64,000 nt of DNA, taken from assembly GCA_944382785.1 (NCBI GenBank), contig CALWNO010000003.1:28572-92571 (forward strand). Direction: 5' to 3'. A model generated the notes under the pieces. It saw only the letters and a list, made by a program, of their open reading frames with translations, searched no databases and was not told where the DNA came from. Origin of the DNA: an uncultured Gemmiger sp. Its GTDB lineage: Bacteria > Bacillota > Clostridia > Oscillospirales > Ruminococcaceae. Each line of letters starts with the position of its first letter. Within the stretch, counting starts at the first letter, position 1. Of this stretch, positions 7,344 to 45,663 are shown piece after piece. The position numbers were made by a program, and so were the translations under genes.

Positions 7344-7413
7344 TGGGAAAAATCATTGCTCCGGTATTTGTCTTTCATACATGCAGTTCAAATATGCCAC
7401 AAAGGAACATTTT

Positions 7414-30289: not shown

Positions 30290-30478
30290 TTACCCCTGAT
30301 TCTGCCGCCCGGACTGGGTGCCGAAGTAAAAGGCCACCACCATGGTCACGATGGTCATTACCGTGTCCGGCTGCAGCCGCCCCCCCAAAGCCAGGGCCGC
30401 AAACACCCCGATGACCACCAGGGTCACAATGGTTTTGACCTTGACGAGCGCAGCCAGGTTCTTCCAGAATTCTTCCAT
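30290..30478 (-). CDS. Small holin-like membrane protein
   Basis: 62 residues, one or two TM segments (TIVTLVVIGVFAALALGG and VMTIVTMVVAFYFGT), ending in a polar SGRQNQG tail. Size, topology and place right after the lysin and a second small membrane protein suggest a holin or holin partner. GGAGGGG before the ATG. Last gene of the phage module. Confidence 0.65.
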   Translation of the reverse strand: MEEFWKNLAALVKVKTIVTLVVIGVFAALALGGRLQPDTVMTIVTMVVAFYFGTQSGRQNQG

Positions 30479-30491
30479 CCTCGCCCCTCCT

Positions 30492-30806
30492 TCACTCCCT
30501 GCCGGAATGCACCGGCAGGCTTTCGCACTTTTTCATGATGTGGGTCACGGCAGGGTCCCCGTCCCCCAGGGCCATATAGGGATCATAGCAGCTGCGCAAC
30601 GTTTCCATCCCGTAGGGCGGCACCGCCTCCTCCTGAATGTAATGCAGCCCCAGGTCAATGACCTTGGCCCGCAGCAGGCCTTTGACCCCCTCCCGCAGGG
30701 CCTTTTCCTCCTTGCGGCTGTGAGTCAGCCGGGCAGCGCCCCAGCCGCCCAGGGCGGTCAGCAACGGCAACAGCGCTGCCAACAGGCCCGAAACAACTTC
30801 CAACAC
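30492..30806 (-). CDS. Phage lysis-module membrane protein
   Basis: 104 residues with a GTG start at 30806 behind GGGAGGA. One N-terminal TM (VVSGLLAALLPLLTALGGWGAA) then a charged cytosolic part (HSRKEEKALREGVKGLLRAKVIDLG). Resembles small proteins found between lysin and holin in Clostridia prophages, often minor holins or antiholins. Function inferred from position and topology only. Confidence 0.55.
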   Translation of the reverse strand: MLEVVSGLLAALLPLLTALGGWGAARLTHSRKEEKALREGVKGLLRAKVIDLGLHYIQEEAVPPYGMETLRSCYDPYMALGDGDPAVTHIMKKCESLPVHSGRE

Positions 30807-30821
30807 GCGCGTCCTCCCTTC

Positions 30822-31478
30822 TCACTCCGCCCAGGCGGAATGGTACAGCCCCAGGGTATCCAGCTTCCGTGCCTTGCACACCGCCAGGATGGCATCCGCA
30901 TCCCCCTGGGTGACGGGACCGATGGTAATGGTCTGCAGCCGCTCCGCCGGGCTGCCTTGCGCCGCAGCCTGCGCCGGACGCTGCACAGCGTACTCCCCGG
31001 GCTGGTAGGTGTATACCCCGGTGTTGGCGGTGGTAAAATCACCGTCCAGCCAGACCAGAGGATTGCGGCGGGTACCGCCCAGAATCACCTCAAAGTGCAG
31101 ATGGGCGCCGCTCACATTGCCGGTATCCCCGGTATAGCCGATGAGCTGGCCTTCCTGTATAGTCTGCCCCTTTTGCACACAAATCCGGGAAAGATGGGCA
31201 TACCGGGTCTGCAGGGTGACCCCCGCATAATCGGCATGGCGGATACGGATCATGGTACCGTAGCTCTGCATCCCGGTTTTGGTGTGTCCGTCCCAGGTCT
31301 GGGTCTCCTGCACGGTGCCGTCCTCCGCCGCATACACCGGCTTGATAATGCTTCCGTCCTGGTTGGTGCGCAGGTCGATGGCTTCATGACGGCTGCCGTC
31401 GCTGTAAAAGTAGCCGGCGGTCAGCACATGCAGCGCCAGGGGCCAGGCCAGCAAGACATCCCCGTTACTCAGCCGCAT
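30822..31478 (-). CDS. Peptidase M23 endolysin
   Basis: 218 residues; ATG at 31478 is supported by GGGAGGT seven bases upstream. LytM/M23 fold: HEAIDLRTNQDGSIIKPVYAAEDGTV near 50-75 (the H-X-n-D zinc ligands) and GAHLHFEV (H-X-H) near 150. C-terminal 40 residues (GPVTQGDADAILAVC onward) look like a small wall-binding or SPOR-like tail. Cuts peptidoglycan cross-bridges for release of particles. No signal peptide, so it needs the holin. Overlaps the XkdX gene by 14 bases. Confidence 0.88.
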   Translation of the reverse strand: MRLSNGDVLLAWPLALHVLTAGYFYSDGSRHEAIDLRTNQDGSIIKPVYAAEDGTVQETQTWDGHTKTGMQSYGTMIRIRHADYAGVTLQTRYAHLSRICVQKGQTIQEGQLIGYTGDTGNVSGAHLHFEVILGGTRRNPLVWLDGDFTTANTGVYTYQPGEYAVQRPAQAAAQGSPAERLQTITIGPVTQGDADAILAVCKARKLDTLGLYHSAWAE

Positions 31479-31602
31479 GGTATACACCTCCCGTAATTTC
31501 CCGGTATTCCGCTTCGGTCAGCAGCCCCTTTTCCACGGCCTGACGTACCTGGAGATCCTTCCAAAGGCCCTGTCTGTACCACTTTTTGATTTTTTCGTAC
31601 AT
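31465..31602 (-). CDS. XkdX family phage protein
   Basis: 45 residues, MYEKIKKWYRQGLW at the start and a LTEAEYREITGG end, the pattern of the XkdX family of Gram-positive siphoviruses and PBSX-like elements. Starts one base after the stop of the previous gene and overlaps the lysin start. Role in tail or lysis control is unknown. Too short to be caught by a 60-codon cutoff. Confidence 0.88.
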   Translation of the reverse strand: MYEKIKKWYRQGLWKDLQVRQAVEKGLLTEAEYREITGGVYHAAE

Positions 31603-31603
31603 A

Positions 31604-31918
31604 TCATCCCTCCAGCAGTGTATCGGTCATCATGGCGGTATAAATGACCTGGGCTTCGATCTGGTCCAAAGTGGAAGGCTGATTCATGGCAGCCAGTTCT
31701 TCCTCCGTATATCGGTGATACCACTGGCAGGGCTCGGTGATATCCTGCGCCGGAATAAACCGACGCAAGCCTTCCGGACGTTCTACGGTCACAGTGCCGG
31801 GCATTACCTCGGTTTCCGATTCGGTCCGCCCCGTCACAATTACACCATCGTACACATACCCGGCAGACAAGTCTGGCTTTGTCATCTCTGCCCGGGTAGA
31901 CTCCTCATAAATTTTCAC
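31604..31918 (-). CDS. Hypothetical phage protein upstream of XkdX
   Basis: 104 residues, GTG start at 31918 behind GGGAGGAG. Soluble and acidic; MKIYEESTRAEM, a beta-rich middle (YVYDGVIVTGRTESETEV), and PCQWYHRYTEEELAAMNQPSTLDQIEAQVIYTAMMTDTLLEG. The last segment resembles the short coiled tail-tip accessory proteins that precede XkdX in many Clostridia phages. No enzyme motif seen. Confidence 0.7.
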   Translation of the reverse strand: MKIYEESTRAEMTKPDLSAGYVYDGVIVTGRTESETEVMPGTVTVERPEGLRRFIPAQDITEPCQWYHRYTEEELAAMNQPSTLDQIEAQVIYTAMMTDTLLEG

Positions 31919-31930
31919 GATACTCCTCCC

Positions 31931-33004
31931 TCAGGTCCTGACGCCATACACACTAAGGGTGCATTTGCTCACAATATCGGACCCGGCATAATTGTCAAAA
32001 TCTGTAAGCGTTGCGCTCTGTTTGTCAGATGATATAGATACATAGCCGCCAGAATTAGCTTGACCGCCCATGTATACAATGAGAGGTGTATCTCCTTGTA
32101 AAATGGATTGTGCCGTCCGGAATGCCTCCCACGTCCAAGTGTTCCCGGTGCCGGGCGACGACACTTCAAAAATATAGCCGGTATATTTTCCGTTCGAAAA
32201 ATCAAAAGGAATACTTTGCGACCCGGTTCCTCTTCCTACAAGATCAACCTTTCCGCCGGCCCCCACCGGGTCCAGCGTGGCCGTGGTACCGGAATCATCC
32301 CCCTGTTTGACCAGGAAATACAATTCCACGTCCACTTCCGGCACGTTGTCAAGCACCGCTGTGATGGTTCCGTCGCCCAGCGTTTTGGCTGCCCCCGCAA
32401 TGTCTTTGGCCGGTCCACTCATAGCCTCTTTGGTTTCCGCCGGCAAGGTGCTGTCTATACCCACGCAGGCAAGCAAGGTACTATCTCCCGTGACCGCCGG
32501 GCCGTCATCCACCGGGGTGAGCTCCACTGTCTGGGTGTAGGGGCCTTCTCCAGTCCATCCGTCCAACAGGAAAGTAGCCTTGTACAAAAAGGGAATGATG
32601 GCCTCGGTCTGTTCGGCGGTGTAATAGGGGGACAGGTCCACCTGGGCGCCGGAATCCACCCACGCGGCTTTTTCCCCATCCCAGATCCAGAGGGTATCGG
32701 TAGACCCCAGAATGGCCCACTGTCCGTTTTGTCCCACCGGATACATTCCCTGCAGGTCCGCCGGGTCCGCAAACCAGCCCAGACAGCCGTTGGCAATGGT
32801 CTGGGCCTGCTCACACCAGTATTTTGCGTTATGGAGGCTCTCTTCCTCCCGCAGACCGGTGCTTCCCTCCGCCCAACTCCGGGCCAGTATGGCACTTTGT
32901 TCCGCCTGCTTCACCGCCTCATCCACCTGGGGCAGCTTTTGCAGGGCCGCATCCAGCTCCGGACCGGTGAGGGTACTGTCGTAATAGGTTTGGGTATCCG
33001 CCAT
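31931..33004 (-). CDS. Phage tail fibre / receptor-binding-like protein
   Basis: 357 residues, AAAGGAGG before the ATG. N-terminal about 100 residues: coiled TGPELDAALQKLPQVDEAVKQAEQSAILARSWAEG (carrier segment of tail fibres) and an EESLHNAKYWCEQA repeat; then a beta-rich LDGWTGEGPYTQTVEL domain; C-terminal 130 residues beta-rich with GGQANSGGYVSI. The DNA for the C-terminal third (about 31930-32350) is AT-richer than the rest of the gene, as expected for an exchanged receptor-binding tip. Confidence 0.65.
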   Translation of the reverse strand: MADTQTYYDSTLTGPELDAALQKLPQVDEAVKQAEQSAILARSWAEGSTGLREEESLHNAKYWCEQAQTIANGCLGWFADPADLQGMYPVGQNGQWAILGSTDTLWIWDGEKAAWVDSGAQVDLSPYYTAEQTEAIIPFLYKATFLLDGWTGEGPYTQTVELTPVDDGPAVTGDSTLLACVGIDSTLPAETKEAMSGPAKDIAGAAKTLGDGTITAVLDNVPEVDVELYFLVKQGDDSGTTATLDPVGAGGKVDLVGRGTGSQSIPFDFSNGKYTGYIFEVSSPGTGNTWTWEAFRTAQSILQGDTPLIVYMGGQANSGGYVSISSDKQSATLTDFDNYAGSDIVSKCTLSVYGVRT

Positions 33005-33034
33005 TGCTTTCCTCCTTTCCCTGTCCCGAAGCCG

Positions 33035-33232
33035 TCATTCCTCCGCCAGGCGGCGGTCCAGGAAGCTTTCCAGCTGCTGTACCGCTGCCAGGGCCTCCTC
33101 ATCCAGCAGCACGCAGTTGGCCCGCTTGTTGGCTTCGGTAATGTTGCCGTCGGCATCGATCACACTGTACATATAGGCGCAGCGCTTGCCTTCGGCGGTG
33201 GTATGCACCGTAAATGCGGTCAGTTTTTTCAT
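33035..33232 (-). CDS. Small hypothetical phage protein
   Basis: 65 residues from the ATG at 33232 with GGAGG before it; overlaps the end of the large tail protein by four bases. MKKLTAFTVHTTAEGKRCAYMYSVIDADGNITEANKRANCVLLDEEALAAVQQLESFLDRRL: a beta start and a C-terminal helix. Likely a tail-tip accessory; such small proteins occur after the tail-spike gene in related phages. Confidence 0.65.
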   Translation of the reverse strand: MKKLTAFTVHTTAEGKRCAYMYSVIDADGNITEANKRANCVLLDEEALAAVQQLESFLDRRLAEE

Positions 33233-36030
33233 GCAGGTTCCTCCATTTCTTCCAGTTGGGTCCATTCCAACGCCACAGCATCGGTCAGGCCGTCCAGTTC
33301 CCGGATGCGGCGGTCGCTCTGTTCCGCCACCGCATCCAGTTCGGCATCTGCGACGGCGTCCGGCGGGACGGACTGTGCGGGGACGCTGTCGGCGTAGCAG
33401 TCGCTGTATCCCCGCTGGGGCGCCAGAACCAGCCAGTCAAAGGCTACCCCCGCCGGGCCATGGACCAGGGCATCCCGACCCTGTTTTTCCACCCAGAATC
33501 CCGGCGCCGCCCCAGTGATCAGCCACTGGGGCAGGGCGTGGGGGTCCAGGCATTCTTCCACCACCGGGTGGATGGTCAAAAGGCAAAGTCCTTCCTCATC
33601 CAGGGTCCCGCTACCGTTGTCACAGAAAAGAGCGGCCGCGCTCTCCATGGCGTTGAGGGCCCGGGCGCCGTAATGGTCGGTGGTCACCACCCGGTTTTTG
33701 GCCCCGGAACAGCCGATATCGCCGTTGACATACAGGTTTTGCCCATACACCCGCAGGGCGTTGTCGTACGCCTGAAGCTGGGCATCATTCTGCCCGCCCA
33801 CCGAGTTTTCCAGGAACACCTGATACCGGCAGCGCTGGATACGGGCGCTGCTGGTATCGCTGCAATAGGTGGCACCGCTGAGATGGTTGACGTATCCACT
33901 CTGAATGTCGGAGTAGGGGTCATAGGTATAGCCCACCTGCAGGCTGCCGGCAGCGTTCTTGTAGCCCACGCCGGTCAGACCGGAGGTGGAGAAGAGCGCC
34001 GTCAGGCTGCGGTTGAACCAGCTCCAGTTGTTTTCGATGCCGGAGCGCAGCTCTCCGTTGGTGTAGCTGTTGAAGCCGTTCCACAGGAATTTGGTGTAGC
34101 TGTCCGCGGAGCCGGCCCGAAGATCGGCGTTGCTGCCCGCCACCAGCGCGGCGTTGTCCAGGTCGATGGTCAGCGCGCCGTTGCTGCTGCGGACGGTACC
34201 GGTGGTGATGTTGCCGCCGTTGATGACGGTTCGGCCGCTTTCTTCCAGATCCCGGAATTCCACCATTCCCGTGAAGGAGATGCGGGCGCTGGACAGCTCC
34301 ACCCCATGGGAATTGAGCTGCAGGGTGGTGGTTTTGGCGGACAGGACAGACAGTTCCGGTGCCTCCAGTTCCAGGGTGCCGGTGCCGGACTGGATGTTGG
34401 CAAACAGATAAACCCGCCCCAGGGTGACGGACGGCAGGCGCAGGCGGGCCGTAGCCGTCACCCAGTCTCCTTCCGGTGCCGGTGTCTGCGCGTCGGCGAT
34501 CTGGGCCAGGGAGGTCCAGACCGTCGTTCGGCTGCCACCCTCCGGTGTGTACTCCCCAAATCCCCGGATGTAAGCGCCGATCATGGCCGGGTCCTGGATG
34601 GTGATGGCGGCGGTGATCCGGTACCGCACCGAGAATTCCACCTCGGCCCCGCTCAGCAGGTCCAGAGCCTCGTCCGGGACATTCATGGCCGCCCCGCAGC
34701 TGCCGGTACCGTCCGCCTGCAGGATGGCCCGCTGCCCGTTCAGGGTCACCGTGCCGCCGGCCTCATGGCCGCTGGAACTGGCCCGGTACCAGGGGACATC
34801 CGCCAGCTGATTGCCCGGGAAATCCTGCCGGGCACAAAGTTCCAGACCGTCCACGGTGGTCTGCATCTCAAATACCTTGCCCTGCAGGTCCTGGTAGGAC
34901 TGTTCATTGACGGCTGTGGTGGTGTCCCGCCGGGCATTGCCGGTACTTTCCAGCTGCATGGTCTGTCCGCTTACGGTGCGTTTCATCACCAGGGTGTGGT
35001 ACACCTGTCCCCGGGCATCCACCACATCCAGCCGGGTGCCGGGGCGGATGGATTCCGCAAAGGGCATGGTCAGCTGCAGCGGGGTATACCGCACCCCCTC
35101 CATCGCCGCAAAGAGGGTCCGGGCCACCGGTTCCAGCCGGTCGGCGCTGTCGGTGGTGAGCAGCCGGTTTCCCTGGACGACCAGGGCGTTGGTGCCGGTT
35201 GCTTCCGGGGGCCAGATGGTCCCCACATCGCCGTCGGTCTGTTTCAGCTGGACCTTGTCCACCGGGGCGGTCTCGTAGTCCTCACAGGTCAGGGACCCCT
35301 GAAGGTAGTATCCCACCCGCTGGCCGATGCGCCAGACCTCTCCTGAGGCCGTGCGCAGCACCTGCCCGGCCAGGCGCAGGGCGGCCGGAATCTGCCCTTC
35401 CCCGGGAGCAGCCACGGCAGGCATCCCGTCTGCCACGGCGTACCAGCCCAGTTCCAGCTGTCCCGTACCGGTCATCCGGGCAAACTTTCCCGCCGCCTGG
35501 GCTGCCCACTGGAGCAGCTGGCGTCCGGTGATCTGCCCGGCGCTGAATGCCCGGATCTGGTATCCGCCGTCGGGCAAGGCGTCCAGGGTGCCCGCCGCCG
35601 GTTCCACCCCGCAGGCTGCGCAGAGTTTTTGCAAAAACGCCGCCAGCGTCATGGGAAAGGCTTGCTGCTGTGCCGCCATCCACTGGGTCATGTCCCGGTC
35701 AAACAGGGTCATGCGGTCGTAGGCGGTGATCCTGTACACGTTGGCGCTGGCCCGGGTGGGCTTTTCAGCCAGGAAAATTCCCGCTGCCGTCTCGGTACCG
35801 GCCTCGGTATCCAGGCGCAGCAGGGTCAGCTCATCCCCCTGGGCCAGGTTCAGCCGCCCTTCCGGCACCCAGATTTCCAGTTCGGCACAGGCCGCACAGG
35901 CGGCGCCGGGACACAGGTCGGTGCCGTCGCTGACCTGCTCGGTGAGGGTCACGCTGCGCAGGGCATTGCCGGCGGTTTCTCCGCTGGTGAGAACGCTGCC
36001 GTCCCCCAGCAGAAGTTTGTGTTTCAGCAT
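33229..36030 (-). CDS. Large phage tail protein (prophage tail/tail-spike type)
   Basis: 933 residues. N-terminal about 370 residues resemble gp18-like/distal-tail-associated 'prophage tail' proteins (LKHKLLLGDGSVLT, a cysteine-rich CPGAACAACAELEIWVP, LTLLRLDTE), followed by a coiled transition (QSYQDLQGKVFEMQTTVDGLEL), a jelly-roll-like carbohydrate-binding segment about 420-560 and a repetitive beta C-terminus. Probably forms the tail tip with a wall-binding or degrading role. No catalytic motif identified. Confidence 0.75.
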   Translation of the reverse strand: MLKHKLLLGDGSVLTSGETAGNALRSVTLTEQVSDGTDLCPGAACAACAELEIWVPEGRLNLAQGDELTLLRLDTEAGTETAAGIFLAEKPTRASANVYRITAYDRMTLFDRDMTQWMAAQQQAFPMTLAAFLQKLCAACGVEPAAGTLDALPDGGYQIRAFSAGQITGRQLLQWAAQAAGKFARMTGTGQLELGWYAVADGMPAVAAPGEGQIPAALRLAGQVLRTASGEVWRIGQRVGYYLQGSLTCEDYETAPVDKVQLKQTDGDVGTIWPPEATGTNALVVQGNRLLTTDSADRLEPVARTLFAAMEGVRYTPLQLTMPFAESIRPGTRLDVVDARGQVYHTLVMKRTVSGQTMQLESTGNARRDTTTAVNEQSYQDLQGKVFEMQTTVDGLELCARQDFPGNQLADVPWYRASSSGHEAGGTVTLNGQRAILQADGTGSCGAAMNVPDEALDLLSGAEVEFSVRYRITAAITIQDPAMIGAYIRGFGEYTPEGGSRTTVWTSLAQIADAQTPAPEGDWVTATARLRLPSVTLGRVYLFANIQSGTGTLELEAPELSVLSAKTTTLQLNSHGVELSSARISFTGMVEFRDLEESGRTVINGGNITTGTVRSSNGALTIDLDNAALVAGSNADLRAGSADSYTKFLWNGFNSYTNGELRSGIENNWSWFNRSLTALFSTSGLTGVGYKNAAGSLQVGYTYDPYSDIQSGYVNHLSGATYCSDTSSARIQRCRYQVFLENSVGGQNDAQLQAYDNALRVYGQNLYVNGDIGCSGAKNRVVTTDHYGARALNAMESAAALFCDNGSGTLDEEGLCLLTIHPVVEECLDPHALPQWLITGAAPGFWVEKQGRDALVHGPAGVAFDWLVLAPQRGYSDCYADSVPAQSVPPDAVADAELDAVAEQSDRRIRELDGLTDAVALEWTQLEEMEEPA

Positions 36031-36040
36031 GGGCTCCTCC

Positions 36041-36415
36041 TCAGCACTGAATGATGTTGAAGCTGAAATTCCGCCACAAGCCGGTGCGCCGGTTCTTCCA
36101 CACGGCGCTGCACTGGCTCATGTAGGCGGTGCAGGTCTCGGTCTCGCCGCTGCCGCCGAACACCGGGTGGGTGAAGGCAAACTGGGCCTTGCCCGCAAAC
36201 AGGTCCCGCAGATACCGCAGCTCCTCGTCGGTGAGCCAGGCGTAGGAGAAGCTCCAGCTGCCCACCTTTTCCCGCACCACCACCCGGTGCATGACCCCGC
36301 TTTCGTCCCGGCCGGAATCGCTGGCGTCCAGATCGGCAAAGCTGAACTCCGGTTCCTCGTCGGGGGCCAGCATGGGCACCCCGTCCACCTGGTAAAACTC
36401 CACCTTGCTGATCAT
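36041..36415 (-). CDS. Phage distal-tail region protein
   Basis: 124 residues. Beta-rich with W and F residues: ISKVEFYQVDGVPMLAPDEEPEF, VGSWSFSYAWLTDEELRYLRDLF, FTHPVFGGSGETETCTAYMSQCSAVW. Starts four bases inside the tape-measure stop (ATGA). Size and place between tape measure and tail spike point to a Dit- or adaptor-like subunit. Confidence 0.6.
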   Translation of the reverse strand: MISKVEFYQVDGVPMLAPDEEPEFSFADLDASDSGRDESGVMHRVVVREKVGSWSFSYAWLTDEELRYLRDLFAGKAQFAFTHPVFGGSGETETCTAYMSQCSAVWKNRRTGLWRNFSFNIIQC

Positions 36416-38241: not shown

Positions 38242-38256
38242 AACGTTCCCCCTCTC

Positions 38257-38829
38257 TCATTTGGCCAGCCGGGCCAGCAGGCGATCGTGTTCCGCCTGTT
38301 CGGCCTCGCTGCGGGCGGGGCGCAGGTCGATCTCGGCCCGGTGGGCCCGGTAATAGCTCAGTTCCCAGGGCTCCAGCTTTTTGCCCCGGCGCAGCTTGTC
38401 CCGGATGGCCACCACCGTGGCCAGGGGCCCTTCCCCGATGGCCGAAAACCAGGCCAGAAAGCTCCACCAGTGCAGAAAGGGCATCGCCCGCACCTCGCAC
38501 CCGGCAGCCCGGTTCACCCCCGCCACGATCATGGGGGCGTCCCGCTGCCAGTCCAGCAGCCGGGGCCCGGGAGCCTGCGTCTCCGTCCGCCCCCCGGCGA
38601 TGAACTCCGCCAGTTTGCGGGCGGCTTCCGGGTACAAGGCTTCGGGCATGGTTTTGAAGTCCCTGTAAAACAGGGCCAGGGCCACATACCACCGTTCCCG
38701 GGGCAGCAGGGTTTCCCCTTCCGCCCCGTCCAGCCAGCCGATCACATCCAGCACGTCCCGGAAATCCCCATGAATGGCCCAGGGTTTTCCGCCCACCGTC
38801 AGGGCAGTGGGCAGGTCCCAGCCGGTCAT
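38257..38829 (-). CDS. Bacteriophage Gp15 family protein
   Basis: 190 residues with the family pattern: HGDFRDVLDVIGWLDG, LLPRERWYVALALFYRDF, AEFIAGG, LLDWQRDAPMIVAGVNRAAGCEVRAMPFLHWWSFLAWFSAIGEG, RGKKLEPWELSYYRAH. Lies between the tail tube/chaperone gene and the tape measure, the place of tail assembly chaperones; its overlap of four bases with the upstream gene fits a chaperone pair made in fixed ratio. Confidence 0.88.
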   Translation of the reverse strand: MTGWDLPTALTVGGKPWAIHGDFRDVLDVIGWLDGAEGETLLPRERWYVALALFYRDFKTMPEALYPEAARKLAEFIAGGRTETQAPGPRLLDWQRDAPMIVAGVNRAAGCEVRAMPFLHWWSFLAWFSAIGEGPLATVVAIRDKLRRGKKLEPWELSYYRAHRAEIDLRPARSEAEQAEHDRLLARLAK

Positions 38830-39275
38830 GCGTCGCCCCGGGCGGCGCGGGCGGCCTCCGCTTCGGCCACGGCCCGGTCGGCGGTGGCTTCCACCGTGTG
38901 CCTGGCCCCCGCCTGCAGGATGGGGGTCAGGGCCTCCAGCAGGTTTTCCACCACCCGGTGACCGTTGGTGCCCACCCCGGCCAGGTTCACCCCTTCCAGC
39001 AGGGTGTCAAAGTCGTTGGGGGCACCGAACACCCGGTTCAGCAGGGCCTTGATCTGCCGGTCATAGTCGGCCAGCAGCTCCAGGGCCGCACCGCCGTCGC
39101 CGTTCTCGGGCAGAGAGGCACTTTTGCGGGTCAGTTCCTCATCCAGGGCGGCCAGTTCCTCCCGGGCCGCAAAAAAGCGGTGGTAGAGGTTGGGGTCTCC
39201 GGGGTTGAAGCGCAGCACGCCCCGCCCGTTGATCTCGAATTCCTCCACACCGGTATCCACCAGCAGTTTGTGCAT
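38826..39275 (-). CDS. Phage tail assembly chaperone-like protein
   Basis: 149 residues from the ATG at 39275. DTGVEEFEINGRGVLRFNPGDPNLYHRFF at the N-terminus, then long helices (AAREELAALDEELTRK, LLADYDRQIKALLNRVFG) and an alanine-rich tail. This layout matches gpG-like chaperones encoded between tail tube and tape measure. Overlap with Gp15 as ATGA. Confidence 0.75.
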   Translation of the reverse strand: MHKLLVDTGVEEFEINGRGVLRFNPGDPNLYHRFFAAREELAALDEELTRKSASLPENGDGGAALELLADYDRQIKALLNRVFGAPNDFDTLLEGVNLAGVGTNGHRVVENLLEALTPILQAGARHTVEATADRAVAEAEAARAARGDA

Positions 39276-39323
39276 CGAAAAATCACGCTCCTTTGTGTTT
39301 CCCGCCCACCCGCCCGGCACGCT

Positions 39324-39806
39324 TTATGCCGCCGGGTTCGGGGTAAAGGTCTTGGTGCTCACGTTGAAGGTACCGGCGGTCTTGACGCCGGTGTAGTGGA
39401 CATTGAAGGGGATCTGGTAGCCGGTGGTATCGCCGCCGTAGCTGACGATCTCCACGTACACTTCCTCCTTCACCGCCGGGTAGGAATCGGACTCATCCCC
39501 CCACAGCTTGACCTCCACCATGTCGGTCTTGAGCTGGTCCAGTACCAGGTCGCCGTCGATGATGGCCTGGAGCTTTTCAAACAGGGGGTCGTCCTTCTCG
39601 GCGTAGTAGGGCGAGACTTCGCCCTGCTTCTGGTAGCTGTCGATGACCACCGAGGTCTGGCCCAGGATGTTGGTCTTTTTTTCCACATTGGCGCTCAGTT
39701 CGGGGGAATATTCCTCCAGGTCGGCGCCCAGACGGCAGTATTCGCTCTCCGCGTCGGAAAAGGCCGCGTTCAGGTAATGGGCCATGTATTTGCGTTCAAT
39801 CTTCAA
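39324..39806 (-). CDS. Major tail tube protein
   Basis: 160 residues, TTG start at 39806 decided by AAAGGAGAG upstream; the next ATG (39785) has no ribosome site. Acidic, beta-rich: RLGADLEEYSPELSANVEKKTNILGQTSV, GDLVLDQLKTDMVEVKLWGDE, YVEIVSYGGDTTGYQIPFNVHYTGVKTAGTFNVSTKTFTP, a pattern of Gram-positive siphovirus tail tube subunits. Forms the hollow tail with the tape measure inside. Confidence 0.8.
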   Translation of the reverse strand: MKIERKYMAHYLNAAFSDAESEYCRLGADLEEYSPELSANVEKKTNILGQTSVVIDSYQKQGEVSPYYAEKDDPLFEKLQAIIDGDLVLDQLKTDMVEVKLWGDESDSYPAVKEEVYVEIVSYGGDTTGYQIPFNVHYTGVKTAGTFNVSTKTFTPNPAA

Positions 39807-39820
39807 AGGTGTCTCTCCTT

Positions 39821-40255
39821 TCAGTACCGGATGGTGTATTCGGCTTTCAGCTGCACGGCGTAGACGGCGGTCCCCTCATCGGAGGCCCGTTCCAGTTTTG
39901 CGTCGGCGGCGGTGAGCCGTTCCTGGGCGGTGTCGGTGTTGCCGAAGACCGGGGCCCTGCCCGCGGCGCTTTCGGCCAGCACCCAGCGCTGCAGTTCCAG
40001 CAGGGTGGCGGCGTTTTCCTGGGCGCTGCGCCCGCCGTAAGGCAGCACCAGCCGCAGGGTGAAGGAGGCCCGGCAGCGCAGGCGCACTTCCCCCAGAAGA
40101 TTCACCCGGCGCTCGGTCACCTGCACCCCGGCGGGGAACAGCCCCGCCGTGCCCGGCACCGCGGGGGCGCCGTCCACCCACAGGGTTTTCACCCCGACCA
40201 GGGCGGGGGCGGTGCGCAGCCAGTCACACAGGGTTTTCAGCGTTTCCTCTTCCAT
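39821..40255 (-). CDS. Phage tail terminator / minor capsid-like protein
   Basis: 144 residues, AAGGAGG before the ATG. EEETLKTLCDWLRTAPALVG helix, LFPAGVQVTERRVNLLGEVRLRCRASFTLRLVLPYG beta sheet, KAEYTIRY end. Alpha-beta layout and position after the two connectors and before the tail tube fit a tail terminator (gpU-like). Confidence 0.65.
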   Translation of the reverse strand: MEEETLKTLCDWLRTAPALVGVKTLWVDGAPAVPGTAGLFPAGVQVTERRVNLLGEVRLRCRASFTLRLVLPYGGRSAQENAATLLELQRWVLAESAAGRAPVFGNTDTAQERLTAADAKLERASDEGTAVYAVQLKAEYTIRY

Positions 40256-40267
40256 GGGCGGTCCTCC

Positions 40268-40684
40268 TTAGTTGGTCAGGCTGCGGGCGCCGCTGCCGGA
40301 CCGGTTCCACCAGCCCCCAGCCTCCAGGTGGCAGAACCGCCCCCGTGCCTCTTTGTGGTCCACATACTGCACGCAGCAGACCCCGGGGTTCACTGCGGGC
40401 ACAAAGGCCGGCCAGGTTTCCCAGGAAACAGCGGGGCCTTCCCCCTCCAGCACCCGGTCCCCGGGTTCCAGGGTGTAGTCCTGCCCCGGCAGTCCCGCCG
40501 CCGCGGGCAGGATCAGCACAAAGTCCTGGGACTGCTGCTGGCCGGTCTCGGTGTGGGTCAGCCGGGTCCGCCGGTCCAGGAAGGCCCCCGTCACCACCCT
40601 GCGGGTGACGGTTCCGGCCGCCTCGTCCGGGTGGTAGAGGGTCACGGTCTGGGTGCACAGAGGGTAGCGCAGCGCCTCAGCCAT
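40268..40684 (-). CDS. Phage head closure / minor capsid protein
   Basis: 138 residues; beta-rich (LCTQTVTLYHPDEAAGTVTRRVVTGAFLDRR, DFVLILPA, PGDRVLEGEGP). Such small beta proteins between adaptor and terminator act as head stoppers in SPP1-like phages (gp16). Start overlaps the end of the upstream gene by eight bases. Confidence 0.6.
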   Translation of the reverse strand: MAEALRYPLCTQTVTLYHPDEAAGTVTRRVVTGAFLDRRTRLTHTETGQQQSQDFVLILPAAAGLPGQDYTLEPGDRVLEGEGPAVSWETWPAFVPAVNPGVCCVQYVDHKEARGRFCHLEAGGWWNRSGSGARSLTN

Positions 40685-41042
40685 GGCGCACCCCCCGCTT
40701 CATGAGCAGAAAGTCCCCGGCCACCTGGCGGAAGTAGGACTCCCGCAGATACAAGGTGGTGGCGGACAGTTCCGCCGGGGCGGTGTAGGTCTCGCTCACC
40801 GAGCCCACACTGGCGGAAGCCAGGCCCCGGCGGCTGTCCTCGGCGTCAAACTCGTACATGGCGTCGGCGATGGCACACAGGGCGTTGTCCTCGGCGTCCG
40901 GAACCCCCTCCCGGGGGCTCACCCGGAACACCTGGCTGTAGTGGGCCAGCTTGGCGGCGGCCCGCTTGGCGTAGCGGGGGAAGTCCCCTTCGGGGATGTC
41001 CTCCCCCAGGTAGGCATCGGTGTAAAAGGTATAGTCCGGCAA
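40677..41042 (-). CDS. Phage head-tail connector (adaptor)
   Basis: 121 residues, TTG start at 41042 preceded by GAGGGGG. All-helical: DFPRYAKRAAAKLAHYSQVF, EDNALCAIADAMYEFD, LYLRESYFRQVAGDFLLMKRGV, a layout of SPP1 gp15/HK97 gp6-type adaptors. Follows the capsid gene by 14 bases. Confidence 0.65.
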   Translation of the reverse strand: MPDYTFYTDAYLGEDIPEGDFPRYAKRAAAKLAHYSQVFRVSPREGVPDAEDNALCAIADAMYEFDAEDSRRGLASASVGSVSETYTAPAELSATTLYLRESYFRQVAGDFLLMKRGVRHG

Positions 41043-41056
41043 GGCGATGCCCCCTC

Positions 41057-41914
41057 TCAGGCCTTGAACTTGGCCAGCACCACCTTGGCTTCGTTGGACA
41101 GCACCGCCACATAGAACTCGTCGGCGGTGATTTCGGTGGTGCGGATCTTGGGTTTGCGCTCGGCCTCCACATTGACCTCCCGCTTGCGGTAGATGGTCAG
41201 GGCCGGGACCTCATCCTCGGTTTCGGGGTCGCTCTCCAGCCGGACGATGGGGCAGGAGTAGTTGGCTTCCTCGTCCACCAGGGGCACCTTCTTGGAAGGC
41301 ACCACCCGGCAGCCTGCCACCATGCCGATCTCGCCGGAGACCATGACCCCGGCCTGGTACTTGTCGGCGGAGAGGAAGTCCGGATCCTTGCGCAGCTGGG
41401 TGACCTGCTTGGGGTGGACGAAGATCACCTTGTCGCTGCCCTGTTCCTCCTCAAACAGGTCCAGGGCGTCCACGATGCCCGCATAGCTGATGTTGCTGGC
41501 GCTGCCGTCAAAGGTCAGGGTGGCGTCCTGGAGGGCGTCCATGCAATCGTTGTCGATCTTGGCGGCGATGGACAGGGCCAGCTGGGTGTTGGCTTCGCCC
41601 ACCGGGTTGCCGTAGCCGGACAGCACCGCCTCGTCGGTGAGGCTGATGCCCTTCATGGCCTTCTTGACGGTGGCCTTGCGGGTGGAGGTGGTCATCTTCT
41701 CGATGGCCACCTCGGCGCCCTCGGCCACGTCGGCGGCGTCGCCGATGTAGCCGTAGGCGGGCACGGTGATGGTATCGCCGGGGACGCCCACCAGGGTGTC
41801 GTCCACCTTGGCGAAGGGTGCCACCCGCAGTTTCTTGGGGATGCGGGCGCTCACCATGTCGCCCATGACTTCGGGGTCGATGAGGTCCGCCAGTTTGGTG
41901 GTCATATCTGCCAT
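41057..41914 (-). CDS. Phage major capsid protein, N4-gp56-like
   Basis: 285 residues, AAAGGAG before the ATG. Starts directly with mature capsid-like sequence (ADMTTKLADLIDPEVMGDMVSARIPKKLRVAPF) and lacks the long HK97 delta domain. VPAYGYIGDAADVAEGAEV, VKKAMKGISLTDEAVLSGYGNPVGEAN, IFVHPKQVTQLRKDPDF are typical of N4-gp56/P22-type small capsids of gut phages. No protease or scaffold gene of usual size is next to it. Confidence 0.85.
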   Translation of the reverse strand: MADMTTKLADLIDPEVMGDMVSARIPKKLRVAPFAKVDDTLVGVPGDTITVPAYGYIGDAADVAEGAEVAIEKMTTSTRKATVKKAMKGISLTDEAVLSGYGNPVGEANTQLALSIAAKIDNDCMDALQDATLTFDGSASNISYAGIVDALDLFEEEQGSDKVIFVHPKQVTQLRKDPDFLSADKYQAGVMVSGEIGMVAGCRVVPSKKVPLVDEEANYSCPIVRLESDPETEDEVPALTIYRKREVNVEAERKPKIRTTEITADEFYVAVLSNEAKVVLAKFKA

Positions 41915-41936
41915 GGTTCTGTTCTCCTTTCAGGTG

Positions 41937-42110
41937 TCAGCCGCGGCGCAGCTGTTCATAGGTGGTGGGGTCGCTGTGCTTGAGAGCCAGCCGTTCCCGG
42001 TAGGTCATGCGGTCCAGTGCTTCCCGGCCGGGCAGCATGGCCGCCGTGCCGGTGCCCGCCGCGTAGGGCGCGGGGGTGGTGTTGGGTTCAGGATTCTGGT
42101 TGGGTTCCAT
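41937..42110 (-). CDS. 57-residue phage protein between portal and capsid
   Basis: An open frame of 57 codons with an excellent ribosome site (AAAGGAGGTG) seven bases before the ATG at 42110, overlapping the portal stop. MEPNQNPEPNTTPAPYAAG is Pro/Asn-rich and disordered; the second half (LPGREALDRMTYRERLALKHSDPTTYEQLRRG) is a basic helix. In the position of a scaffold, with a helical C-terminus as in scaffold capsid-binding ends, but much shorter than known scaffolds. Confidence 0.75.
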   Translation of the reverse strand: MEPNQNPEPNTTPAPYAAGTGTAAMLPGREALDRMTYRERLALKHSDPTTYEQLRRG

Positions 42111-43437
42111 CCGGATTCACCTCCTTTGTGCCGGGCATATACCGCCCACGGACGGCAGCCAGGTCGGCCTCGGTCTCGTGGGGCAGCCCGAAATACCAGG
42201 CCAGGGCCAGTTCGGGGCGCAGCAGGCCTGCGTCCACCATGTCCCGGTATTCGTTCCAGGTTCGGGTGCGGTCGTAGAGGACCCCGTCCCCCCAGTCCAG
42301 AGTCAGGGCGGCGTCGGGGTCAAAGGGAGCGCCGCTGCACAGGCCGTAGGCCCGGCCCAGGGCGTCGCACAAGGAAAGGGCCTCCCGCAGCGCCCCTTCC
42401 CACATGGCCTGAAAATCCCGGATGGTCAGGTCATAGTCCCCGGAGGAGGCGGTCACCTCGGTGGCGGTGCGCTCGGTGGCTTCCACCTCGCTGAGCAGCC
42501 CCCGCTTGAGGCCGATGAGGCTTTCGCACCCCCGCAGGATGTCCTGCTTGCGGGCCAGATAGCTCTGTTCCCGCAAGGCGGGGCTGTACACCGTCACCCC
42601 CAGGTTGGCCGGGTCGTCGGGCAGGCCCACAAAGAGGTCGTCCCGCAGGCTGCGGCGGCCGTTGCCGTCCTCGTGGAGCAGGTCCTCCGAGGCAAACACC
42701 CGGGCGGCGCCGTTCTCGAACTCCCGGCGCAGCTGGTATTCGGTGCGGGCCAGGCTGTGGATGAGTCCCGCCGCCGGGGCAAAGACAGCCACCGCCTCGG
42801 GACCTCCGTCCACGCAGTTGAGCAGTGGGGTGCGCAGGGTGGCCAGACCCACCCCGGGCACGCCGGGCAGCAGCAGGGTGGGGCGCAAAGCCTCGGTCTC
42901 AGGCAGGGCCGAGAGGGGTTCCTCCCGCCCCAGGGCCTCCCCGGCCAGGGAAAAGAGCCGGGTCTCGATGCACAGCCCCTGGGTCCCGGCGCTGCGGCGC
43001 TCCAAAAGCGCGTACCGCCGCCCGCCCCGGGCCAGCAGTTCCATGGTACCCACCGCCTGCAATCGGCCGTGGGCGTCCCGGGCCAGGGGGGCAAAGCAGT
43101 CCCGGCGCACCGGCACAAAGTCAAAATGCCCGTCCCGGGGGACCGGTTTCAAAAGGCATTCGCCCCCCACCAGGGCGTCCTGCAAGGCGCGGCGGCGCAC
43201 GGCGTTCAGCGCCTGCAGATTGCCCGCCATCCAACCGGCGCCGGTGAGCCGGGTCTCGTACTCCGCAAAGACGGCCCGGCAGAGCTTGTCCACAATGAGC
43301 ACCGGCAGCCGCCCGGCGGGGTCTTCCCCCGGCAGGGCGCGGCCGAAATACAGGTCGAACCACTCGCGGATGGCCGTGTGCATGGCCGGTCCGGTCACGT
43401 CGGAGCGGCCAAAGGCCTGTTCCAGAAAACTCTTCAA
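42088..43437 (-). CDS. Phage portal protein, SPP1 gp6-like
   Basis: 449 residues, TTG start at 43437 behind AAAGGAGG. N-terminus KSFLEQAFGRSDVTGPAMHTAIREWFDLYFG, LIVDKLCRAVFAEYE, a central beta clip, and C-terminal RKQDILRGCESLIGLKRGLLSEVEATERTATEVTASSGDYDLTIRDFQ, the conserved helix segment of SPP1-like portals. Forms the DNA channel and docking site for the terminase. Confidence 0.88.
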   Translation of the reverse strand: MKSFLEQAFGRSDVTGPAMHTAIREWFDLYFGRALPGEDPAGRLPVLIVDKLCRAVFAEYETRLTGAGWMAGNLQALNAVRRRALQDALVGGECLLKPVPRDGHFDFVPVRRDCFAPLARDAHGRLQAVGTMELLARGGRRYALLERRSAGTQGLCIETRLFSLAGEALGREEPLSALPETEALRPTLLLPGVPGVGLATLRTPLLNCVDGGPEAVAVFAPAAGLIHSLARTEYQLRREFENGAARVFASEDLLHEDGNGRRSLRDDLFVGLPDDPANLGVTVYSPALREQSYLARKQDILRGCESLIGLKRGLLSEVEATERTATEVTASSGDYDLTIRDFQAMWEGALREALSLCDALGRAYGLCSGAPFDPDAALTLDWGDGVLYDRTRTWNEYRDMVDAGLLRPELALAWYFGLPHETEADLAAVRGRYMPGTKEVNPDGTQPES

Positions 43438-43454
43438 TCCTTCCTCCTTTGTGT

Positions 43455-44678
43455 TCAGCTGCCCCGGCGCCGCCAGATGGATTCCACCGCATACCGCACC
43501 GCGTCGATGTGGTGGTTGTTCACATCGGGGTAGCCGGGCAGCACCGTCCCGGTGCGGGGGTCCCGCTCATACTCGTAAGCGGTGAACTCGGCGGCGGTGT
43601 CGGGGCAGCGGCCGGGGTCAATGACGATGGCCCCCAGGCTTTGCAGCCATTTCATGCTTTGTTCCACACTGCCCGGCCCCTTGCGGGCGGCGCGGCAGGG
43701 CAGGCCGTAGGCCCGGTAGTCGGCGCAGCTTTTGGGCTCGGCGGAGTCGGCCGTGAGCCAGCTTCCCTCGTCCCCGCCCACGCCCCGGTCCAGCAGCAGC
43801 TGGGCGGTGTCCCGGTTGGAGGTGCGATGTCGGGTGAGCTCATCAAAGATGTACAGCACCCGCCGGGCGGGGTCGTAGGACACGGCGTTGTAGGCCCAGG
43901 GGTCGGGGTACCAGCCCCAGTCCACCCCGTGGTACAGCCGGTCAAAGGCCGCGATGGTCTCATCGGGGATGGGTTCCAGCCGCAGGTTGTCGAACACCGC
44001 CGCGCCGCTGCCCACCACCTCGCCCAGGTACTCGTGGCGGTAGGCCACCGGGTTGACCTGTTTCAGGTGTTCGGCGTCGGCCAGGAAGCGAGGTCCCAGC
44101 CAGTGGGGCGGCAGGTCCTTGTAGGTGGAGTGGAGCACCCGCCGCCCTTCCCGGGGTTCCAGCACATACTGATTCACCCAGCTGCGGCCCATGGCGGGGG
44201 GGTTGAAGCTCTTGAAGGCCAGACTGAACCCGCCGCCCCGGAAGACGCTCTGTTCCACGCTGCGCACCTCCTCGGGGCCGTCGAACTGGTCCAGCTCCTC
44301 GAACCAGGCCAGACCGATGTACCCGAAAGGGGCCCGCACGCTCTTGAGCTTGCCCGCATCATCCAGGCCAAAGAAGAGGATCTTCTGGCCGGTGGGCAGG
44401 TAGGTGCACTCCATGGGGCTGACGGTGCACCGGAACTTGTGTCCCAGGCCCAGAGCGGCGATGGCCCAGCAGATCTGGGCGTAAACGCTGGTACGCATGG
44501 TGCCCCCCACCTTGCGCAGCACCACGGCGTGGCAGTCGGGGTGGCGCAGCAGCTGCAACAGGATTTCCAGGGAAATATAGCTGGACTTGCCGGACCCGCG
44601 GCCGCCTTTCAGGATCAGTTCCTCCACCTCGCCCCGGCGCACCGCGCAGTGTTCCTGCCAGAACACCGGGGCAATCAC
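43455..44678 (-). CDS. Terminase large subunit, PBSX family
   Basis: 407 residues as annotated. ATPase: Walker A GGRGSGKSSYIS (26-37), Walker B-like FGYIGLAWFEELDQF; C-terminal RNase H-like nuclease with YHGVDWGWYPDPWAYNAV and IFDELTRHRTSN. PBSX-type terminases begin a few residues earlier (…LKDVIAPVFW), and GGAGGA lies 8 bases before an in-frame ATC at 44699 rather than near the GTG at 44678, so the real start is uncertain. Packages DNA by headful or nonspecific cutting. Confidence 0.93.
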   Translation of the reverse strand: MIAPVFWQEHCAVRRGEVEELILKGGRGSGKSSYISLEILLQLLRHPDCHAVVLRKVGGTMRTSVYAQICWAIAALGLGHKFRCTVSPMECTYLPTGQKILFFGLDDAGKLKSVRAPFGYIGLAWFEELDQFDGPEEVRSVEQSVFRGGGFSLAFKSFNPPAMGRSWVNQYVLEPREGRRVLHSTYKDLPPHWLGPRFLADAEHLKQVNPVAYRHEYLGEVVGSGAAVFDNLRLEPIPDETIAAFDRLYHGVDWGWYPDPWAYNAVSYDPARRVLYIFDELTRHRTSNRDTAQLLLDRGVGGDEGSWLTADSAEPKSCADYRAYGLPCRAARKGPGSVEQSMKWLQSLGAIVIDPGRCPDTAAEFTAYEYERDPRTGTVLPGYPDVNNHHIDAVRYAVESIWRRRGS

Positions 44679-44727
44679 ATCTTTCAGTCGTACACGGATG
44701 GGTCGTTCCTCCTTTCCTGTGCAGGGG

Positions 44728-44919
44728 TCATTCCCCGTCCAGAATGATCACCCCCTCCTCGTCCCCCGGGCCGTCCCCCATGCCCAGGTAGCGGTAGATC
44801 ATTTCCAGCGCCCGCAGCTTGTCCGCCGCCTTCACCGGCAGGTCGCCGCCGCGCAGGTCGGCAAAGGCGATGAGCGCCAGTTCCTCCAGCACCCGGTCGG
44901 GTGTGATCCCCTCCTGCAT
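44728..44919 (-). CDS. Short terminase small-subunit-like protein
   Basis: 63 residues from the ATG at 44919 with GGGGG upstream. PVKAADKLRALEMIYRYLGM is the C-terminal oligomerisation or terminase-binding segment of PBSX-type small subunits (KLKALELLGKHLGM-like). The N-terminal HTH domain that would recognise pac/cos is missing. Either DNA recognition comes from another protein or packaging is nonspecific. Confidence 0.7.
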   Translation of the reverse strand: MQEGITPDRVLEELALIAFADLRGGDLPVKAADKLRALEMIYRYLGMGDGPGDEEGVIILDGE

Positions 44920-44944
44920 CGTCCATCCCCCTTTCCGCACCATT

Positions 44945-44974
44945 AGACTACCATGCCGCGGCCCGAAAGTTCAA
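44945..44974 (-). promoter_or_regulatory. Possible activator-dependent late promoter
   Basis: Minus strand TTGAAC (44974-44969), 18-base spacer, poor -10 TAGTCT (44950-44945), 26 bases before the small terminase ATG. The 28-bp element lies seven bases upstream of the -35, a place suited to an activator. Confidence 0.5.
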
Positions 44975-44980
44975 CAAAAC

Positions 44981-45008
44981 GTTACCGTATTCTGTAAGTA
45001 CAGGGTAC
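44981..45008. promoter_or_regulatory. 28-bp repeated element, copy 1 (before packaging genes)
   Basis: 28 bases starting GTTACCGTATTCTGTAAG and ending ACAGGGTAC. 23 of 28 positions match copy 2 at 45510. Core CTGTAAGTACAG is near-palindromic and the ends (GTTACC and GGGTAC) are roughly inverted, so a dimeric regulator is likely. Sits between the ArpU-like gene and the small terminase gene. Confidence 0.7.
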
Positions 45009-45025
45009 GAAAAAAAGCCGAAACC

Positions 45026-45478
45026 TCACCGTGTTCCCCGCAGCCTCCCTTTCTTTTCCGCCGGGGTATCGGGCTCCGGCCCGTCCACCACCAGCAGCCG
45101 CACCCCCTCGGTCTGCAGCTGTTCCACCCGCCGGGGCACCACCCCCATCTCGTCGGCAGCCTCGGCGATGGTCTGCCCCTGCAAAAACCGGCGGCAGAGA
45201 ACTTCCCGCTGCCGTTCGTCCCCCAGTCGGCTGATGGCCCTGACCATCCGGCGGCGCAGCAATACGCACCGGGCTCCCTGGGCCTCCATCTCCTGCCGGG
45301 CCTGGGCCAGGTCCCGTGCCAACCAGTCCGGGGGCGGGGCATCCTCGCTGCCGTCCCGGGCCCGGCAAAGTTCCCGCCCCTGGGCACGCAGGGCCTCCAG
45401 TTCGGCACACAGCAGCCGCAGACGGCTCTGCTCCTGCCGGTACCGTCCCAGCCATTGAATTTTTTCCCGATTGGTCAT
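45026..45478 (-). CDS. ArpU/sigma-region-4-like late transcription regulator
   Basis: 150 residues, GGAGGAG before the ATG. N-terminal coiled part (REKIQWLGRYRQEQSRLRLLCAELEALRAQG), then RAISRLGDERQREVLCRRFLQGQTIAEAADEMGVVPRRVEQLQTEGV, a helix-turn-helix of the sigma-70 region 4 type as in ArpU and DUF1492 phage proteins. These control late operons. It is the first gene of the phage module, with one copy of the 28-bp element upstream of it and one downstream before the packaging genes. Confidence 0.82.
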   Translation of the reverse strand: MTNREKIQWLGRYRQEQSRLRLLCAELEALRAQGRELCRARDGSEDAPPPDWLARDLAQARQEMEAQGARCVLLRRRMVRAISRLGDERQREVLCRRFLQGQTIAEAADEMGVVPRRVEQLQTEGVRLLVVDGPEPDTPAEKKGRLRGTR

Positions 45479-45509
45479 AGCTCCTCCTTCGGCATCTGCC
45501 TGTGATAAT

Positions 45510-45537
45510 GTTACGGTTTTCTGTAAAGACAGCGTAC
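45510..45537. promoter_or_regulatory. 28-bp repeated element, copy 2 (before the regulator gene)
   Basis: 28 bases starting GTTACGGTTTTCTGTAAAG and ending ACAGCGTAC, matching copy 1 at 23 of 28 positions. It covers the -10 of the likely promoter of the ArpU-like gene, a place suited to autorepression. Confidence 0.7.
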
Positions 45538-45559
45538 ATCAACAACCAAAGGTTGTCAA
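45531..45559 (-). promoter_or_regulatory. Promoter of the ArpU-like gene
   Basis: Minus strand TTGACA (45559-45554), 17-base spacer that contains the hairpin ACAACCAAAGGTTGT, and a weak -10 TACGCT (45536-45531) inside the 28-bp element. The perfect -35 with a poor -10 suggests regulation. Confidence 0.5.
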
Positions 45560-45600
45560 GCATGTTTTGCCACTTTTTCCTGGCGCCCCCGAAAAGGTCA

Positions 45601-45640
45601 AAAAAATACCCCGGCAGCGTGGATTTCTGCCGGGGTGTTT
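45601..45640 (-). terminator. Terminator of the cardiolipin synthase gene
   Basis: ACCCCGGCAG (45608-45617) pairs with CTGCCGGGGT (45627-45636); on the minus strand it is followed by TATTTTTTT. It insulates the phage module from the upstream gene. Confidence 0.9.
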
Positions 45641-45663
45641 TCTTGATGGGGGATACGCGCATT

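Follow-up and report, generated by a model that had tools for sequence, protein, structure and literature searches.

A phage late-gene module of about 15.2 kb was identified in a 64-kb stretch of DNA (hereafter the window; contig C3 of genome G000), which belongs to a Gemmiger genome assembled in 111 contigs; the G, C and L numbers denote the genomes, contigs and loci of our set. We consider it probable that this cluster encodes phage particles which Gemmiger has domesticated and brought under its own control, that these act as a gene transfer agent (GTA) does, and that a packaging activity already reported for the genus arises from them. GTA-like packaging of 8.4-8.9 kb fragments was described in Gemmiger with no genes assigned to it in the available text of the report (Borodovich and others 2026, PMC12946183), and the cluster is a strong candidate, and the most likely one, to account for it. 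The packaging and delivery of DNA by the cluster are unproven. Comparison of the sequences establishes that the late module lies mostly at one site, is under purifying selection and is inherited with the species. The strongest evidence for a GTA-like system comes from a probable SOS box before the regulator gene, a terminase moved to a second site and the shortening of the head scaffold.

A probable SOS box precedes the regulator gene

The control region contains the following features:

45531-45559 (-): promoter-like site of the regulator, TTGACA-N17-TACGCT, read directly
45542-45556 (-): box ACAACCTTTGGTTGT overlapping the -35 hexamer, probable SOS-repressor site, common to lexA-like, recA, uvrB, rmuC and gyrB/parE-like genes
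45510-45526 (-): TTACAGAAAACCGTAAC, first copy of the repeat TTACAGN4CNGTAA, before the regulator
45026-45478 (-): regulator, 150 amino acids (aa), C-terminal part like sigma-70 region 4 (PF04545, 5.5e-8; phrog_36, transcriptional regulator, 4e-6)
44981-44997 (-): TTACAGAATACGGTAAC, second copy of the same repeat, before the small terminase gene

A pattern search located the box ACAAC-N5-GTTGT less than 300 bases ahead of the regulator in 23 of 23 loci, and it was placed by eye in G017, where the regulator itself had been placed by tblastn and by eye and not by the gene caller. This amounts to 24 of 24 loci that include this stretch, against an expectation of 0.003 obtained by shuffling. The box overlaps a TTGACA hexamer in 23 of these loci and lies further downstream in G031. 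All 29 boxes contained in 26 loci (738 kb) stand before the regulator or before late genes, the five further ones preceding late genes in G003, G007, G031, G013 and G019. The repeat TTACAGN4CNGTAA occurs exactly twice per locus in four of the 25 loci, which form the window's own clade, and is absent from the other 21.

Six genomes contained 5-11 copies of the box each (43 in total), versus 1-5 copies of the reversed pattern (18 in total). Twenty-four of the 43, contained in 20 stretches, were read, and five others are the regulator's own. Nineteen of the 24 sites read precede genes of SOS type: seven lexA-like (XRE-S24), five recA, three uvrB, two gyrB/parE-like and two rmuC; one gene of each kind was identified by Pfam (two for the lexA-like genes) and the rest by likeness of the protein starts. 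Because of these 19 sites, ACAACN5GTTGT is most likely the SOS box of Gemmiger. The other five comprise two in one stretch of G004, two inside unrelated genes and one some 460 bases upstream of an integrase gene; a perfect copy at that distance upstream of a phage-integrase-family gene was noted in G000 (contig C1, L232). The Gemmiger SOS repressor is apparently a protein with an XRE-type helix-turn-helix and an S24 peptidase, whose gene is divergent from one of 85-93 aa (L217, L218, L219, L223). Regulation by the host, which is expected of a GTA, is therefore indicated at the sequence level only, by the SOS-type box that precedes the regulator gene in all 24 loci.

A shortened small terminase and a terminase pair at a second site

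In the window both terminase genes follow the regulator:

44728-44943 (-): small terminase (TerS), 71 aa, without N-terminal part (phrog_51 positions 150-214 of 261, E 0.0014; hhalign)
43455-44678 (-): large terminase (TerL), 407 aa (PF04466, 8.7e-38)

TerS was 61-88 aa long in the 22 sequences compared. The N-terminal part of small terminases binds DNA. A preliminary description, made from the window's sequence, had claimed that this part is lacking, and the protein indeed aligns only to residues 66-159 of the 162-aa TerS of G078, a genome of another genus with a related module (hhalign 96.6%, pairwise E 5e-10). The 65 N-terminal residues are absent, and the alignment contains an internal gap besides.

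A TerS-TerL pair was found outside the cluster, at another site, in nine genomes (G001, G004, G013, G018, G019, G020, G022, G026 and G034). Its neighbours in G004 are melibiase, amylase, beta-galactosidase (lacZ), a DUF6198 protein, BlaR1 and BlaI, the pair being placed between lacZ and the last three. Relatives of BlaR1/BlaI stand beside the pair in five of six other genomes compared, the contig of G019 ending first, and genes of the same sizes flank it in G026 and G034. In the TerL tree, the cluster and relocated proteins formed one clade (Shimodaira-Hasegawa-like approximate likelihood ratio test, SH-aLRT, 99), apart from nine TerL of ordinary prophages (98); neither clade included the TerL of G078 or those of two other prophages. 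The genomes without a terminase in the cluster, G012 among them, grouped together in the tree of the cluster (99), and did not form a separate group in the rpoB trees, which are less resolved. A further candidate, T023, was dropped as a relocated terminase; this 3-kb contig carries TerS and TerL besides a gene of 144 aa, and its TerL groups with those inside the cluster.

In the clade with the split terminase, the motif CMTTGNNNTTCACAACN5GTNGTAAHAT precedes both the portal gene and the relocated terS. The pattern was derived from those same sites and was scanned with up to two mismatches, so that the scan tests whether further sites exist. Exactly two sites and no third were obtained in all eight genomes holding both parts, one site each in G006, G016, G027, G012 and G018, and two in G031. 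The reversed pattern gave no match in any of 17 genomes. In an ordinary prophage of G031 (L260, contig C3, ~7398-7854) a homologue of the regulator stands directly before the late-promoter motif. This motif, standing behind the prophage's own regulator homologue, is therefore of phage origin, and the regulator and promoter of the cluster were probably acquired together from a phage. The regulator would act on this promoter.

A remnant of the head scaffold

A short gene lies between those of the portal and the capsid:

42088-43437 (-): portal protein (phrog_533, 1.5e-50)
41937-42110 (-): head scaffold remnant, 57 aa, C-terminal tail only, by likeness to the 235-aa scaffold of G078; no family match itself
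41057-41914 (-): major capsid protein (phrog_544, 1.4e-83; solved relative 9m66 Gp6, E 1.1e-56)

The remnant (52-61 aa) is present in 23 of the 25 loci, the exceptions being G003 and G005. Twenty-seven of 48 residues are identical to residues 186-233 of the G078 scaffold (E 7e-16 in a two-sequence search), and the end of another scaffold is also matched (1e-7). The full scaffold of G078 was recognised by phrog_194 (2.7e-40) and by Phage_scaffold, PF06810, with the domain at residues 42-198. The remnant may bind the capsid protein, and its shortness would give a small head. The SOS box, the relocated terminase, this 57-aa remnant (41937-42110) and a 124-aa gene of the tail region (36041-36415) were absent from the preliminary description.

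Distribution, inheritance and selection

The capsid gene was detected in 25 of 35 Gemmiger genomes and in none of 26 genomes outside the genus (61 searched). A wider draw of 297 genomes of the family gave 20 capsid matches, three in Gemmiger and 17 in others at 27-69% identity. The host gene cls lies within 1.9 kb of the regulator in 20 of the 25 loci, 18 of them in one orientation and two with cls inverted. Elsewhere, cls is 16.6 kb from the cluster with host metabolic genes in between (G013), other host genes stand directly upstream of it (G019, G021 and G031), or the contig is too short to show the upstream neighbour (G023).

For the 18 genomes present in both, the cluster tree, built from the proteins of eight joined genes, and a first rpoB tree had 10 of 15 splits in common. 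Random relabeling, repeated 2000 times, never gave as many (3 at best), and the cluster and rpoB distances were correlated at 0.85. In a bootstrapped rpoB tree of 29 genomes, the cluster was present in 18 of the 20 crown Gemmiger and absent from all eight Gemmiger outside the crown. One crown exception, G010, is discussed below; the other, G018 (assembly 82% complete), has the relocated terminase and neither cls nor capsid. Carriers without usable rpoB (G003, G005, G009, G017, G019, G023 and G034) are absent from the rpoB trees, rpoB is partial in G010, G015 and G030, and G005 was omitted from the cluster tree.

The ratio of nonsynonymous to synonymous substitution rates (dN/dS) was calculated over seven species pairs, or fewer where a gene was missing. 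Values of 0.02-0.13 were obtained for the capsid, 0.09-0.18 for TerL, 0.11-0.24 for the portal, 0.21-0.52 for the tape measure, 0.06-0.53 for TerS and 0.26-0.50 for the 933-aa tail protein (tail933; 5 pairs), the reference genes giving 0.05-0.18 (cls) and 0.02-0.03 (rpoB). These values indicate that the cluster genes are kept, although they change faster than rpoB. Tail genes have been exchanged between clades of the cluster. It was also observed that in G031 and G005 the capsid gene gave two separate matches, divided around residue 215, as with an insertion, and that the cluster of G031 is rearranged inside, with tail-type genes between TerL and portal (L133-L134).

The cluster is thus conserved, vertically inherited in its host clade and under purifying selection, as expected of a GTA. 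The preliminary description had proposed a GTA-like or domesticated particle cluster, and the genus-wide locus, the dN/dS values well below 1 and a phylogeny that follows the species support this proposal. The comparison of gene order and dN/dS across relatives that it recommended favours a conserved, selected locus. It had also named what would speak for an ordinary or satellite prophage, namely an integrase, att sites or early genes just outside the limits in relatives, or frequent absence with clean empty sites; this pattern was not found, for most genomes without the cluster branch early and only G010 represents a clear loss within the crown.

Gene content and limits of the cluster

The module occupies positions 30290-45478, leftward, from the 150-aa regulator to a 62-aa protein, with all frames open. 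Regulator, terminase, portal, capsid, tail and lysis genes were recognised by PHROG and Pfam profile searches of the window, and together with the gene calls these bear out the leftward late module of ~15 kb with intact frames that had been described. The remaining genes and the bounds are:

45664-47214 (-): cls, cardiolipin-synthase-like (PLDc), host flank (Pfam PLDc_2, 3.8e-36)
45600-45635 (-): terminator-like hairpin 3' of cls, GC-rich inverted repeat plus T run, read directly
40677-41042 (-): head-tail adaptor (phrog_541, 3.1e-13)
40268-40684 (-): probable head-tail stopper, named by place; no PHROG match; in 24 of 25 loci
39821-40255 (-): tail completion protein (phrog_3266, 9e-6)
39324-39806 (-): probable major tail protein, named by place (phrog_3099, 4.6e-47, no function given)
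38826-39275 (-): probable tail assembly chaperone, named by place (phrog_11299, 9.2e-21, no function given)
38257-38829 (-): Gp15-like protein (PF06854, 5.2e-11)
36412-38241 (-): tape measure protein, 609 aa (phrog_1535, 1.6e-27)
36041-36415 (-): tail-region protein, 124 aa (phrog_1194, 7.3e-14, no function given)
33229-36030 (-): tail protein, 933 aa (tail933), fast evolving, putative tail tip (phrog_6616, tail protein, 4.5e-30)
33035-33232 (-): 65-aa protein (gene caller)
31931-33004 (-): putative fibre-like protein, variable between species; no family match, partial or no match in relatives
31604-31918 (-): 104-aa protein (gene caller)
31465-31602 (-): 45-aa protein (gene caller), presumably XkdX-like
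30822-31478 (-): M23 endopeptidase, probable endolysin (PF01551, 9.2e-23)
30492-30806 (-): 104-aa protein (gene caller)
30290-30478 (-): 62-aa small protein, putative holin (phrog_13256, 3.8e-14, no function given)
29836-30072 (-): acyl-carrier-like host gene bounding the cluster (PF00550, 6e-9)

Two frames were rejected as out-of-frame shadows, one of the regulator (44982-45662, 226 aa) and one of TerS (44684-44926, 80 aa).

The host-gene bounds given in the preliminary description held as well, cls with its terminator-like hairpin on one side and the acyl-carrier-like gene on the other. Beyond cls lie an ABC transporter and a DegT aminotransferase; on the opposite flank the acyl-carrier-like gene is accompanied by a glycosyltransferase, a UDP-galactopyranose mutase and an epimerase. 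As had also been stated, no early phage genes were recognised beside the module, either in the window or wherever the neighbours of cluster loci were annotated. No tRNA genes and no Rfam families at gathering score were found in the window, and no integrase (PF00589) on the window's contig among the matches listed (6 of 10 in the window's genome). Sixteen of 20 proteins upstream of the cluster in G013, G016, G019, G021 and G031 belong to host families, and four had no match. As in a GTA, no recognised genes for replication, integration or excision therefore accompany those for structure, packaging and lysis in the window and the annotated neighbourhoods. The integrase, repressor and replication genes that go with the late genes of an ordinary temperate prophage, and its full TerS, were not found.

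The G+C content is 0.63-0.70 over most of the cluster (window positions 33000-46000), 0.39-0.50 to the left (23-30 kb) and 0.58-0.63 to the right (46-55 kb). The same genome contains a 5.3-kb fragment of an ordinary prophage on contig C84, with a TerL 73% identical, a longer TerS and other head genes. IMG/VR lists fragments of the cluster among its viral contigs (L060, L061, L064).

Proposed mechanism and origin

According to the mechanism that we propose, DNA damage would inactivate the LexA-like XRE-S24 repressor and the regulator would then be made, switching on the late promoter or promoters. The capsid would stay small for want of a full scaffold, and a terminase without sequence preference would fill it with random host DNA of ~8.5 kb. 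Because this load is smaller than the 15-kb cluster, the particle could not spread itself. The endopeptidase and the holin would release it.

As to the origin of the system, the case is evenly poised for a conversion of phage into GTA by two cuts, of the N-terminal DNA-binding part of TerS and of the assembly domain of the scaffold, together with an SOS repressor in place of the phage repressor; the terminase would have moved in one clade within the same two-site regulon, and the result would be the gene source of the Gemmiger particles. The loss in TerS would remove packaging specificity, and that in the scaffold would hold the head below the length of the cluster. This suggests a route from phage to transfer agent by removal of packaging specificity and of head-size control. 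If the reading is true, gene exchange in a common genus of the human gut is linked to DNA damage.

Evidence against the proposed role and rival explanations

Several observations weigh against a GTA-like role. The present cluster is known from sequence, not from particles, packaged DNA or transfer, and what connects it with the packaging reported for Gemmiger is the name of the genus and species only. The crown genome G010 has cls and no cluster. Change in the cluster genes outpaces that in rpoB and, for most of them, that in cls, and it is fastest in the tail genes. Three loci from metagenome-assembled genomes (MAGs) appear damaged: G003 is without portal and scaffold remnant; G005 is without gpG, gp15, tape measure, the 124-aa gene and the scaffold remnant; and in G032 the capsid frame is broken. 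No terminase was found in G012 (assembly 83% complete). The structure model of TerS, two helices, is of low confidence (predicted local distance difference test, pLDDT, 59). The late motif has no site in the window's own genome, nor in G008 and G011, and the second site of G031 lies in an ordinary prophage, so that the cluster is not the only element to carry it. Ordinary prophages with a similar TerL were seen in 11 of these genomes, and such prophages could package host DNA.

The main rival, which is possible but unlikely, is a killing particle like PBSX, the cluster being kept since DNA-filled particles kill related strains and do not deliver DNA. SOS control suits a suicidal weapon, and tail933 is among the fastest-evolving proteins (dN/dS 0.26-0.50), with tail genes swapped between clades, as for receptor binding. 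PBSX itself packages 13-kb random host DNA without transfer, according to the available text of PMC7667829. The maintenance of the terminase and its relocation as a pair under a matching promoter argue against this explanation, as does the better conservation of capsid, portal and TerL, which a pure killing tail would not need, although PBSX does package DNA.

Rather improbable is the origin of the faecal Gemmiger packaging in another element, such as an ordinary prophage or an unrecognised operon, with the cluster doing something else. An ordinary siphophage head usually holds more DNA than 8.4-8.9 kb, which speaks against such a prophage in spite of the 11 genomes with ordinary prophage TerL. 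The available text of PMC12946183 links no genes to the Gemmiger packaging, which leaves room for another element, and reports no operon of FpGTA (the GTA of Faecalibacterium) in Gemmiger, which narrows it.

A decaying prophage that has lost its early genes and awaits deletion is very unlikely. It would agree with the lack of recognised early genes and with the missing or broken genes in the three MAG loci (G003, G005, G032), but the retention of the cluster in 25 species with dN/dS well below 1, and of the box and the two-site motif, is unlike neutral decay. Also very unlikely is a prophage or satellite that arrived recently or inserted repeatedly at one attachment site by cls, for although most species show the same neighbour, and relatives of the capsid and terminase are known from other members of the family and from ordinary prophages, the cluster tree follows rpoB, the annotated neighbours are host genes, and the nearest integrase on a cluster's contig, among the matches listed, is ~41 kb away (G031).

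Comparison with known systems

Within the open-licence literature, bioRxiv preprints excluded, PMC12946183 alone joins the terms "gene transfer agent" and "Gemmiger". The "undescribed particle system" of the preliminary description therefore stands as regards the genes, which had not been assigned, and not as regards the GTA-like packaging activity, which the available text of that paper already reports in Gemmiger. G. formicilis ATCC 27749, which is among the genomes searched there according to the same text, carries the present cluster (L052, NZ_FUYF01000006.1). A packaging that had been measured with its genes unassigned can now be referred to a defined cluster in a cultured strain, so that the proposal is directly testable.

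FpGTA, as far as it is described in the available text of PMC12946183, resembles the Gemmiger cluster in its occurrence in gut Ruminococcaceae, in a TerS without obvious DNA-binding domain, in the lack of replication genes and in its two separate operons; packaged DNA of 8.4-8.9 kb is reported there for both Faecalibacterium and Gemmiger. However, its homologues are stated to be absent from Gemmiger, and FpGTA is podovirus-like with a scaffolding gene, whereas the Gemmiger cluster has a tape measure, tail genes and a remnant of the scaffold only. The two systems are set apart here by description only.

The alphaproteobacterial GTAs, RcGTA among them, are domesticated late modules kept in a clade, with no early genes, dispersed loci and host regulation, and the Gemmiger cluster is alike in all these respects. 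They belong to hosts of an unrelated phylum; in the available text of PMC6473078, LexA acts through cckA on the control of the Rhodobacter GTA, and the Dinoroseobacter cluster has a predicted LexA site. In Gemmiger, by contrast, the box precedes the cluster's own regulator (24 of 24 loci), which is like phage late regulators (phrog_36).

PBSX of Bacillus subtilis has its own repressor and gene set. It is likewise an inducible phage-like particle of a Gram-positive host and holds random host DNA, but this DNA is 13 kb long and is not transferred, to judge from the available text of PMC7667829. The major capsid protein (MHP) of Lactococcus phage TP901-1, a complete temperate phage, is homologous to that of the cluster (42.7% identity over 98%).

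A further comparison is offered by the module of G078, which is alike in its regulator (37% identity), TerL (69%), portal (48%) and capsid (68%) and in its tail genes, all standing in the same order. Unlike the Gemmiger cluster, it has a full TerS (162 aa) and a full scaffold (235 aa), and the ACAACN5GTTGT box was not found in its 40-kb locus. Genes like those of an XRE regulator and a metallopeptidase, and few other early genes, were seen by eye upstream (L139-L140). The G078 module may be a cryptic prophage, or it may be less far along in domestication.

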